Below are positions 31,030 through 52,125 of a DNA stretch of 64,000 nucleotides, piece after piece (position 1 is the stretch's first letter; each line of letters starts with the position of its first letter). The position numbers and the translations under genes are program-made. Below the pieces are notes generated by a model, which worked only from the letters and a program-made list of their open reading frames with translations, was not told the DNA's origin and did no database searches. The stretch is from Fibrobacter succinogenes (GTDB taxonomy: Bacteria > Fibrobacterota > Fibrobacteria > Fibrobacterales > Fibrobacteraceae), in the NCBI GenBank assembly GCA_902762305.1, contig CACWNW010000005.1:124001-188000 (forward strand), in the 5' to 3' direction.

Positions 31030-32247
31030 ATGTACAATCTGCTGGATAAGGGTGGCGTATGTTCCCCCAAGGGGTTCACTGCTTCTGGAATTTGCGCTGG
31101 CATCAAGGCTAGCGGCAACGCCGACATGGCGCTCCTCAGGAGCGAGAAGGCTGCGCGCTGCTTCGCCGTTTTTACCACCAACAAGGTGAAGGCCGCCCCG
31201 GTATTGTACGACAAGGCTGCACTTGAACACGCCCACTTCGCGACCGCGGTCGTGGTGAACAGCGGCAACGCTAACGCCTGTACCGGCGAACAGGGCTACA
31301 AGGATGCCGAACGCATGGCGACCCTTACCGAAGAGGCTCTGGGCCTTACCCCGAAGAGCGTGCTCGTCTGCAGCACGGGCGTGATTGGCCACCTGATGCC
31401 GATGGACAAGATCGAGGCGGGCATTCCGAAACTCGTCGAGAAGCTGCATGCCGATGCTTCCGAGGAATTCGGCCGCGCCATCCTCACGACCGACCTTGCC
31501 CTCAAGAGCCATGCCGTTGAAATCCACACCGAGAAGGGCGTGGTGACGATTGGCGGCGCCTGCAAGGGCTCGGGCATGATCCACCCGAACATGGCGACCA
31601 TGCTTGCCTTCATTACGACCGACATTTCGCTCCCCATCGACTTCTTCGCCGAATTCCGCGCCGACATCGCGGATTCCTTCAATGCGATTACCGTCGATGG
31701 CGACACGAGCACGAACGACACGTGCATCTTGCTGGCCAACGGCATGAGCGGGCTTCGCTACGAAGACCTGAGCCTTACCGAGCAGGGAGAATTCCGTGCG
31801 GCGCTGATGCTCATTATGCAGAGTCTCGCGAAGGACATCGTGCGTGATGGCGAAGGCGCCACCAAGCTTATCGAACTGCGCATCGAGAAGGCCGAAAGCC
31901 ACGAAGAAGCCCTCCGCATGGCGCGCTTCATCGGTACCAGCAACCTCGCGAAGTGCGCTATGTTCGGTGAAGACCCGAACTGGGGCCGCATCCTCAGCAG
32001 CGCGGGTTCCAGCGGCTGCAACATGGTGGCCGAACACACCGACCTGTACTTCGGCGACGTGAAGGTCTTGGAAGGCGGTCGCCCCATCCAGCTCGACGAA
32101 GCCCAGACGGCGGCACTCCATGCCGTTGTTCGCCAGCGTGAATACAAAGTAACGCTCGTGCTCAACATCGGGCAGGCATCCGCAAGCGCGTTTACCTGCG
32201 ACTTGAGCTACGGCTACGTGAAGATCAACGCTGAGTACATAACGTAA
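31030..32247 (+). CDS. argJ: Bifunctional glutamate N-acetyltransferase/ornithine acetyltransferase
   Basis: The 405-residue enzyme transfers acetyl between N-acetylornithine and glutamate (and may use acetyl-CoA) in arginine synthesis. ArgJ is made as a precursor that cleaves itself before a Thr: the site is seen as KGSGMIHPNMATMLAFI (A-TML). Other motifs: GGVCSPKGFTASGICAGIK at the N-terminus, VVVNSGNANACTG, LVCSTGVIG and AMFGEDPNWGRI. AGGAGA precedes the start. The gene ends 3 bases before a structured repeat that supplies its terminator. Confidence 0.96.
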   Translation: MYNLLDKGGVCSPKGFTASGICAGIKASGNADMALLRSEKAARCFAVFTTNKVKAAPVLYDKAALEHAHFATAVVVNSGNANACTGEQGYKDAERMATLTEEALGLTPKSVLVCSTGVIGHLMPMDKIEAGIPKLVEKLHADASEEFGRAILTTDLALKSHAVEIHTEKGVVTIGGACKGSGMIHPNMATMLAFITTDISLPIDFFAEFRADIADSFNAITVDGDTSTNDTCILLANGMSGLRYEDLSLTEQGEFRAALMLIMQSLAKDIVRDGEGATKLIELRIEKAESHEEALRMARFIGTSNLAKCAMFGEDPNWGRILSSAGSSGCNMVAEHTDLYFGDVKVLEGGRPIQLDEAQTAALHAVVRQREYKVTLVLNIGQASASAFTCDLSYGYVKINAEYIT

Positions 32248-32250
32248 GCG

Positions 32251-32345
32251 ACCGCTTGTTCGTCGTTTCGGGTGATGAAACCTCCGGTTACTCACTCGCT
32301 CTCACTGCAAAGGCTCGTTGATACGAGCCTTTTCCGTTCACGAAA
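32251..32345 (+). repeat. Solitary copy of the two-hairpin repeat, acting as argJ terminator
   Basis: The element begins accgcttgttcgtcg, like the units of the array at 51630. It contains AACC-TCC-GGTT (32279-32289) and, at the matching distance, a strong hairpin AAAGGCTCG-TTGATA-CGAGCCTTT (32309-32332; 9 bp). The hairpin stem is unlike the stems of the array, but lies in the same place in the unit. It starts 3 bases after the argJ stop, so it probably ends argJ transcription. Confidence 0.6.
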
Positions 32346-32361
32346 GCGATTGCTAGTGTTA

Positions 32362-32398
32362 GAAAAAAAATCGCTCCGGTTTAGTCGGGGCGATTTTC
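32362..32398 (-). terminator. Terminator between argJ and the MORN lipoprotein gene
   Basis: A 12-bp stem (AAAATCGCTCCG at 32367-32378 with CGGGGCGATTTT at 32386-32397, one wobble) lies 23 bases beyond the stop of the minus-strand lipoprotein gene and is followed on that strand by eight T. It could also stop plus-strand read-through. Confidence 0.8.
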
Positions 32399-32420: not shown

Positions 32421-33347
32421 CTAGTCCTTCAGGCAGCGGAGGCTGGCACCGAATTCGGGATTGAACTTCTCGAACTTCGCGATGTCCTTGTCGTGGTAGA
32501 ACACGAGGACTTCGCCTTCGGCTGTCCAGAGGTAGGCTTTCTTGCCGGCATCTTCGAACTTGCGTTCCTTCAGCGGGACGTCGCTCTTCGCGAAGTGGGC
32601 GCCGCCGGCCTTCACGCCGAATCCGAGTTCATCCTTGCCGTTGCCGTAGTCGTTTCCGCCTTCCTTGATGGGATCCCAGCCGAAACCGGCCTTGAGCACG
32701 GTGCCGACCTTGCCGGTTGCTTCGGCGAAGGTGAGGAGCGTCTTCCATTCATCCTTGGTGGGCATGTGGAAACCTTCGAGGCAGGCCTTCTTCGCATTCT
32801 CGAAATTGTAGAGGCGGCCCCAGTGGTTGCACTGGTTGCACACGGAACCTTCATAGGTACCGAAGTTCATGTTTTCGGCCGTCCAGAGCTGCGTGCCGAT
32901 GCGAATCCACTGGTAGGCGTATCCGTCGCGCGGGTCCTTGTAGCTGCCATCGGTGGCGGGGCTTCCATCGGGGTCGAACACTTCGCCGAATTCAATCTGC
33001 TTGTTCTTCTGGTACTTGGCCTTGGAAGCGAGCTTGCCGTTCTTGTGGTACTTGGAGACTTCACCCTCGATGTAGCCATCGGCGTAGGGTGTTTCGGCCT
33101 GGAGCGTGCCGTCGTCGTAGTATTCCTTTTGAACGCCTTCCTTGCGGTCTTCGTTGTAGTTGGTCTCGCGCTTGAGCGTACCGTTGTTGTAGTACTCCTT
33201 TTCGAGTCCCTGCTTCTTGTCTTTGACGTAGGTTGTTTCCATGCGCACCGAGCCGTCGGGGAATTCCTGCACGCGGATGTCCTCGCAGGCGGTGAGGGCG
33301 AAGGCTGCCATCATGGCGAGAAGTGTAGTGGTGGTTCTCTTTTGCAT
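32421..33347 (-). CDS. Lipoprotein: MORN-2 repeats fused to Fibrobacter major paralogous domain
   Basis: The 308-residue lipoprotein (lipobox LTAC, Cys21) has five roughly 22-residue repeats of MORN-2 type (about 25-135: KEYYNNGTLKRETNYNEDRKEG, then KEYYDDGTLQAETPY...). The C-terminal 170 residues are the paralogous domain, in a diverged form: WTAENMNF, WGRLYNFENAKKAC, GFHMPTKDEWKTLL and a final SLRCLKD. MORN-2 repeats occur in antitoxin-like and membrane-associated proteins; the function is unknown. The gene follows the GH8 gene on the same strand after 14 bases, so the two may be co-transcribed. Confidence 0.8.
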   Translation of the reverse strand: MQKRTTTTLLAMMAAFALTACEDIRVQEFPDGSVRMETTYVKDKKQGLEKEYYNNGTLKRETNYNEDRKEGVQKEYYDDGTLQAETPYADGYIEGEVSKYHKNGKLASKAKYQKNKQIEFGEVFDPDGSPATDGSYKDPRDGYAYQWIRIGTQLWTAENMNFGTYEGSVCNQCNHWGRLYNFENAKKACLEGFHMPTKDEWKTLLTFAEATGKVGTVLKAGFGWDPIKEGGNDYGNGKDELGFGVKAGGAHFAKSDVPLKERKFEDAGKKAYLWTAEGEVLVFYHDKDIAKFEKFNPEFGASLRCLKD

Positions 33348-51513: not shown

Positions 51514-51587
51514 CAAGTCTTCCCGTTTACGGGATCAACAATAACACACACAGGGTGCGCCTCTCTAGCGCACTCACCACAACAACA

Positions 51588-51625
51588 AGGGACTACCTGG
51601 GTCTCCCTGCCTGGGTAGTCCTTTT
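51588..51625 (+). terminator. Terminator of the dcw cluster
   Basis: GGACTACC (51590-51597) and GGTAGTCC (51614-51621) form an 8-bp stem extended by a TGGG/CCTG region, followed by TTTTG. It is 75 bases after the ftsZ stop. A smaller hairpin (GTGCGC ... GCGCAC) lies at 51555-51573. Confidence 0.8.
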
Positions 51626-51629
51626 GTAT

Positions 51630-52125
51630 ACCGTTCGCGCTACGTCTGTGGATAGATACCTCAGGTATGCACTCACTCTCGCCACCACGGCACGCTTGCA
51701 CCGTGCCGCTTGTGGCTCACGATGCGACCGTTCGTGCTACGTCTGAGGAAAGATTCCTCCGGTATGCGCTCACTCTCGCCACCACGGCACGCTTGCGCCA
51801 TGCCGCTTGTGGCTCACGGGTATATCGCTTGCTCGTCGTCTCGGGGACAGAACCTCCGAAATCTCGCTCGCTCTCGCGTCCGCGCCTGGTTAATACTAGG
51901 CGCTTGCCGCTTACGGAATACCGCTCGCGCTAAGTCTGAGGAAAGATACCTCCGGTATGCACTCGCTCTCGCGACCGCCACGGCTTAACGCCTGTGGCTT
52001 TGTCGCTTATGGTGTGACCGCTCGCGCTACGTCTGTGGATAGATACCTCCGGTATGCGCTCACTCTCGCCACCACGGCACGCTTGCGCCGTGCCGCTTGT
52101 GGCTCACGGGCGTCCGCTCGGTATA
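51630..52125. repeat. Tandem array of 97-bp two-hairpin units
   Basis: Five units begin at 51630, 51727, 51824, 51920 and 52017 (spacing 97, 97, 96, 97), with a truncated sixth at about 52113. Each starts (a)CCGCTCGCGCTACG, has the mini-hairpin ATACC-TCC-GGTAT, then CTCGC-rich sequence, then a second hairpin, then CTTGTGGCTCACGG. Units 1, 2 and 5 share the stem CGGCACG/CGTGCCG (one mismatch in unit 2). Unit 3 has GCGCCT/AGGCGC and unit 4 GCCAC-GGC/GCC-GTGGC: different bases but still paired. No long reading frame is supported across it. It lies between the ftsZ terminator and the next gene's start at 52176. Confidence 0.8.

Follow-up and report, generated by a model that had tools for sequence, protein, structure and literature searches.

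Among small structured repeats, BOX is modular in its build. REP and BIME elements are short, dispersed, palindromic and extragenic, and some of them are placed just 3' of stop codons (PMC12306157, PMC3733652). The BOX, RUP and SPRITE repeats of Streptococcus pneumoniae are structured and narrowly distributed, show a low insertion rate and were judged to be parasites without a host role (PMC3049150). In Neisseria, paired DNA uptake sequences double as rho-independent terminators and sometimes lie just 3' of a stop codon (PMC2397512).

Here we show that the DNA 3' of argJ in Fibrobacter succinogenes is a repeat unit that belongs to a large family. The argJ reading frame ends with TAA at 32245-32247, and on the far side of the unit lies a convergent minus-strand gene at 32421-33314. 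Coordinates are those of the window, the whole 64,000-nucleotide stretch of DNA that was analysed. The family was followed with two covariance models: R1, built from the five units of an array at 51630-52110 alone, and R2, a wider model of 33 copies, the argJ copy being excluded from both. The features at argJ, with the basis of each in brackets, are as follows.

32248..32258, plus strand: 5' start motif L, GCGACCGCTTG, adjoining the argJ stop codon (sequence, L motif statistics)
32251..32347, plus strand: repeat unit 3' of argJ (R1 40.4 bits, R2 73.3 bits)
32279..32289, plus strand: hairpin I of the left half, AACC-TCC-GGTT, weak (sequence; arm-swap support slight)
32295..32303, plus strand: constant block K2, CTCGCTCTC, joining the two halves (sequence; nearly invariant alignment columns)
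32309..32333, plus strand: hairpin II with TTTT, terminator-like, of the AAAGG..CCTTT subtype (arm-swap, terminator rule, T-tract count)
32346..32356, plus strand: degenerate second L copy, GCGATTGCTAG, at the closing end of the unit (sequence)
32367..32397, no strand assigned: distinct terminator-like hairpin in the interval from argJ to the convergent gene (terminator scan; cross-species counterpart)

The first letters of the unit read ACCGCTTG, and GCGACCGCTTG and GCGATTGCTAG form its L pair. Hairpin II pairs AAAGGCTCG (32309-32317) with CGAGCCTTT (32324-32332) around the loop TTGATA, in 9 bp with 0 mismatches, and is followed by one further T and then CC; its subtype is found in 13 of 99 copies. 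Hairpin I has 4 bp, a 3-nt loop and an A.A mismatch outside, and an earlier note on this DNA, in stating that both stems pair perfectly, was right about the second hairpin and generous about the first. Folded alone, the argJ stretch is more stable than its shuffles (z -2.38). The G+C-rich stem with an immediate sense-strand T-tract that is a feature of intrinsic terminators is present, and a simple terminator rule calls hairpin II terminator-like at 32311-32330; the tract is weak (TTTT then CC, with 5 T among the 8 nt after the GC core), and a stricter terminator scan tool did not list this hairpin. The description of the unit as the argJ terminator therefore needs a qualification, since hairpin II has terminator-like features and a second hairpin, at 32367-32397, follows it.

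Membership of the argJ copy in the family stands, because the array-only model scores it significantly: R1 finds it at full length, over model positions 1-97, with 40.4 bits and E 2.8e-8 in the window (E 1.6e-6 in a genome-wide search). The alignment keeps the order of constant blocks and hairpins of the array at 51630, as the earlier note had proposed. R2, whose training set included four copies with argJ's right-half subtype, gives 73.3 bits, with the next window match at 10.1 bits, and the 35 copies aligned first include four other units with near-identical right halves. The copy is far from being the lone member that it had been taken for. At E<=0.001 the genome holds at least 94 copies by R1 and at least 95 by R2 (95 of 99 R2 matches), both counts being lower bounds from the best 150 of about 770 candidates. 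The 99 R2 matches fall into 65 clusters, 21 of them multi-copy, and all but two are unidirectional. Two contigs start with near-identical half-units (G000:C8:1-60 and G000:C24:1-60), so that the assembly probably breaks at the repeats and copy counts are low.

The argJ repeat family is a Fibrobacter repeat: all 25 genomes of the genus that were searched gave R2 matches, and none of 16 from outside the genus did. The named relatives that carry it are Fibrobacter, and the closest argJ in the named collection, 97% identical, comes from an F. succinogenes MAG. Rfam 15 has no match at gathering score at the argJ unit or at the units in 20 loci of the same genome, the sole Rfam match around those 20 loci being a neighbouring tmRNA; an Rfam identity for the argJ region was rejected, as the matches at E<=10 are at chance level (cow-rumen-1, for example, has 12.6 bits where its gathering score is 53.4). 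A search of the open-access full-text literature found no description of the family.

The array from which R1 was built is laid out as follows.

51553..51625, plus strand: ftsZ-DE RNA (Rfam RF02985), a different element that precedes the array (Rfam scan)
51630..51726, plus strand: array unit 1 (TRF, R1)
51727..51823, plus strand: array unit 2 (TRF, R1)
51824..51919, plus strand: array unit 3, with a type B left half and the layout closest to argJ (R1/R2 scans)
51920..52016, plus strand: array unit 4 (TRF, R1)
52017..52113, plus strand: array unit 5 (TRF, R1)
52114..52121, plus strand: partial L copy at the closing end of the array (sequence)

Instead of the six units once counted there are five full ones (TRF, 5.0 copies) and a partial start. 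Unit 3 is missed by R1 in the window scan and scores 80.5 bits genome-wide. The array lies directly 3' of the ftsZ-DE RNA (window 51553-51625), and R2 matches occur in 15 of 30 ftsZ loci of the genus that were scanned.

A typical unit is about 95 nt long and runs from ACCGYTCG through a variable left half, the constant block CTCRCTCTCGC, a variable hairpin II and GCTCAC to a local second start block. Hairpin II covaries strongly and hairpin I does not. When hairpin arms were swapped between copies (78 of 99, the other 21 being dropped for an unrecognisable K2 or an odd length), the mean energy of hairpin II was -19.65 kcal/mol with its own arms and -11.87 kcal/mol with swapped ones; for hairpin I the values were -8.4 and -7.5 kcal/mol, a slight difference that gives almost no support, and hairpin I was dropped as a conserved structure. 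Across a structure-blind alignment of 33 copies, hairpin II together with a 3-bp left stem has a covariation score of 0.321 against 0.129 when shuffled. In hairpin II, 90.9% of outer-stem cells are paired and 4 of the 5 pairs there show two-sided changes; the inner stem is paired in only 54.4%, in an alignment that registers the variable arms poorly.

The start block recurs at the 3' end of 33 of 63 clusters (two of the 65, of mixed strand, were dropped); solitary units account for 21 of these, out of 44, and random spans show such a copy in 7% of cases. This 3' copy matches the start of its own cluster better than the starts of others, the observed match being reached in 3 and 6 of 5000 permutations. 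A local direct repeat of this kind, in 33 of 63 clusters, is expected equally from tandem duplication and from target-site duplication. We also considered whether many L sites stand empty and discarded this, since of the 68 matches to GACCGYTCGYKC (control, 6) only five lie apart from the listed units. Some units carry a palindromic insert, CACCTAAAGGTGGCCATG..GTGTCCAAAGGT, between K2 and hairpin II (L059 and L236, 3' of argJ and ftsZ, and G000:C8 before 37017). Inverted, nearly identical pairs of units about 120 nt apart lie at G000:C4:18974-19283 and G000:C16:7890-8198, the usual arrangement being a same-strand tandem.

The units are anchored to the ends of genes, genes being predicted here by a simple codon-based caller. 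The upstream neighbour shares the strand of the unit in 51 of 62 clusters (p=2.8e-7; 3 of the 65 clusters, one of them also overlapping a gene call, had no called upstream gene and were dropped), and the downstream neighbour shows no strand preference (28 of 58). Forty-eight clusters could be placed, with the upstream gene on the same strand and the downstream gene known, and 25 of these begin within 10 nt of the stop codon, where uniform placement gives a mean of 3.7 and a maximum of 10 in 5000 trials; a few members of this near class have a called gene that runs over the start of the unit. The strand preference was replicated in G003, G005 and G010 (59 of 69 clusters, p=1.4e-9, with 43 near clusters; 6 of 75 without a called upstream gene were dropped), for which hits matching model positions 1-97 were kept and G020 and partial hits excluded. 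Of the 22 clusters that start more than 20 nt behind the stop, 17 have a terminator-like hairpin between stop and unit. One unit sits 3' of a tmRNA gene. At G000:C2:144316-144356 an apparent tRNA 3' fragment on the opposite strand, possibly the remnant of an integrated element, abuts a unit.

Position relative to the gene goes together with the presence of a T-tract, defined as at least 5 T in the 8 nt behind the G+C core of hairpin II and scored on the first unit of each cluster. It is found in 22 of 27 near, 3 of 15 far and 1 of 8 antisense clusters (near against far, p 1.8e-4). The replicate in G003, G005 and G010 gave 34 of 38, 4 of 15 and 1 of 8, respectively (near against the rest, p 1.2e-7), after removal of clusters with an unscorable hairpin (5 of 43 near; 3 of 26 in the far and antisense classes); with one record per upstream gene over the four genomes the tract is present in 39 of 45 near clusters against 4 of 21 of the rest (p=1.4e-7). 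Copies able to act as the first terminator thus appear to keep terminator features that the others tend not to keep. As a correlation at the level of sequence, the contrast supports the word terminator for the class of units, and together with position and strand it lends indirect support, in four species, to the suggestion that the unit is a domesticated terminator. The difference could also reflect module types that spread in different contexts. The tracts themselves, such as TTTGTTGC and TTTTCCGT, are weak by the standard of ordinary terminators in the same genomes and, in the majority of copies, share bases with the 3' arm of the outer stem of hairpin II. A separate downstream terminator follows 14 of 25 near clusters, argJ included, so that the unit is often not needed. 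Of 10 control gene ends taken from the window, the simple terminator rule is positive at 3; either its sensitivity is low or many of these ends lie inside operons.

Occupancy of the argJ slot is variable across the genus. We classed 36 loci from different genomes by their start and K2 blocks and by reading: a full unit is present at 5 (G000, G042, G050, G005 and G020), and the start block alone or a decayed left part at another 5 (G045, G041, G052, G003 and G046). Three further loci share another left part, L202 and L209 with an R2 match to the right half and L206 with the same start. The remaining loci have plain terminators or unrelated repeats; start-block flags raised under a two-mismatch rule at L187, L192 and L194 were judged false by eye. 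The hairpin at 32367-32397 has a counterpart at 6 of 35 other loci of the genus, 1 with a unit and 5 without, by a strict pattern that misses the window's own copy with its changed arm. That this hairpin is kept with and without the unit led us to reject the unit as the sole argJ terminator, and suggests an older terminator in front of which the unit has been either gained or lost.

Other repeats were seen in the same slot. A second family, AGACGAAAGAACGC-hairpin-TATAGACGAAAGA, framed by direct repeats, occurs in other Fibrobacter species (L187, L190, L192 and L199), and a third type has TGAGGTATGAG, short hairpins and TTTGAGG words (L193, L195, L196, L200 and L207). Tandem units some 75 nt long, TTTTTGTCGTTCRTC..CCTCCGGTCACAAAAATTACCGTC..GAGAACAGCGCGTACTCTCGGG, start near the stop codon at L062, L119, L211 and L325, and their CCTCCGGT part recalls hairpin I.

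Where a site is occupied in two genomes, the two halves of the unit are exchanged independently. The 21 pairs of orthologous sites from G000, G003, G005 and G010 kept both halves in 5 cases, the left only in 3, the right only in 4 and neither in 9; a half was counted as conserved at about 0.9 identity, applied by eye, the pairs are not independent (some are three-way sites), and the downstream flanks of G003, G005 and G010 differ at some sites. At one site, where the last 60 residues of the gene match at full score, G003 and G010 have identical right halves and different left halves, and G003 and G005 a common left half and different right halves. At argJ itself the units of G000 and G005 lie at equal distance from the stop and differ in their halves. 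Left halves are 0.54-0.69 identical within a genome, modestly above the between-genome value, and 0.74-0.91 identical in orthologous pairs of G003, G005 and G010. Concerted evolution of the left halves was accordingly rejected, and module exchange rather than homogenisation is claimed.

A search for a mobilising enzyme found Y1_Tnp (PF01797) in 5 of 16 genus genomes, units being present in all, and RAYT mobilisation was dropped; in G000 it lies on contig C18, where there are no units among the matches listed. The description of the unit as mobile is consistent with turnover at the argJ slot and with half-swapping at orthologous sites, but a tie to a transposase was not found. We propose that recombination, or template switching, from one short constant block to another may copy or delete halves and whole units, a route that would explain the tandem arrays, the sites with a bare L and the mosaics.

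Taken together, these observations make it somewhat probable, judged from sequence, that the family is a modular, Fibrobacter-specific repeat that serves as a spreadable and replaceable intrinsic terminator and spreads by recombination at its constant blocks. According to this model, hairpin II would form in the transcript 3' of the gene when a unit adjoins the stop codon, and the U-tract behind it would release RNA polymerase; at argJ two terminators would stand in series, the unit being the upstream one.

A selfish short dispersed repeat of the REP, MITE or BOX kind, without host function and tolerated only in the slot between stop and terminator, with its orientation set by a directional target such as TAAG-ACCG, is an unlikely explanation, albeit one of some substance. 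Occupancy of the argJ slot is patchy, with most species lacking the unit, unrelated repeat families fill that slot in other species, copies also exist behind terminators and in antisense, and direct repeats flank clusters, all as such an element would predict. However, a concentration of T-tracts in stop-proximal sense copies, seen in four species, is not expected of a neutral element, and the distribution of Y1_Tnp gives no transposase link. It is rather improbable that the unit instead acts in the 3' UTR on translation or mRNA stability, as might stop-proximal REPs of E. coli. The distance of 0-9 nt from the stop in many clusters would suit such a role, but hairpin I, the nearest to the stop, is the poorly supported one in the arm-swap test, and the near/far contrast resides in the T-tract, which favours termination. 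Finally, AAAGGCTCG..CGAGCCTTTT is by itself a common form of terminator, yet an ordinary, unrelated terminator that resembles the family by chance can be set aside almost entirely, given E 2.8e-8 over all 97 positions with an argJ-free R1, the 73.3 bits from R2 and the four near-identical right halves on other units.

The terminator reading can be extended, tentatively and at something short of even chances, to the genus as a whole: the units may be swappable terminator cassettes anchored to stop codons, with two hairpin modules exchanged independently between genes by recombination at the constant blocks; gene ends would then change much more quickly than genes, and the repeat would be a shared, mobile 3'-end part for the whole genome. 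If this is right, a short repeat can become a standard gene-end part throughout a genus, evolving by the exchange of modules, and the turnover of terminators becomes measurable at orthologous genes. Annotation of the DNA 3' of Fibrobacter genes should treat the units as repeats.

How does the unit compare with described systems? The ftsZ-DE RNA (RF02985), reportedly from a 2017 structured-RNA paper, is likewise a structured element 3' of a Fibrobacter gene and here abuts the array; it has its own Rfam family and matches none of the 20 unit loci of the same genome scanned (E<=1). Like the REPs and BIMEs of enterobacteria and pseudomonads, the unit is short, dispersed and extragenic, with some copies near stop codons. 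In contrast to them, it is about 95 nt long, has two variable modules between constant blocks and forms direct tandem arrays with a spacing of about 97 nt. The GTAG foot, a REP feature (PMC3733652), is absent from the consensus of 33 copies, and the tie to a RAYT transposase is lacking (Y1_Tnp in 5 of 16 genus genomes). Unlike a MITE, the unit has no terminal inverted repeats: few bases match between the start, ACCGYTCG, and the reverse complement of the end, GCTCACGG. With BOX, RUP and SPRITE, compared by description and not by sequence, it shares narrow distribution and structure, and with BOX also modularity, and it stands out from them by its anchoring to stop codons and the exchange of halves at orthologous sites. 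The Neisseria uptake sequences resemble it in being a repeated genomic word that is also terminator-like; there the fixed word lies in the stem, whereas in Fibrobacter the stems vary and covary and the constant words lie outside. With its terminator-like features and a spread like that of REP and BOX, the Fibrobacter unit may, on the sequence evidence, be filed among the small structured repeats as a variant.
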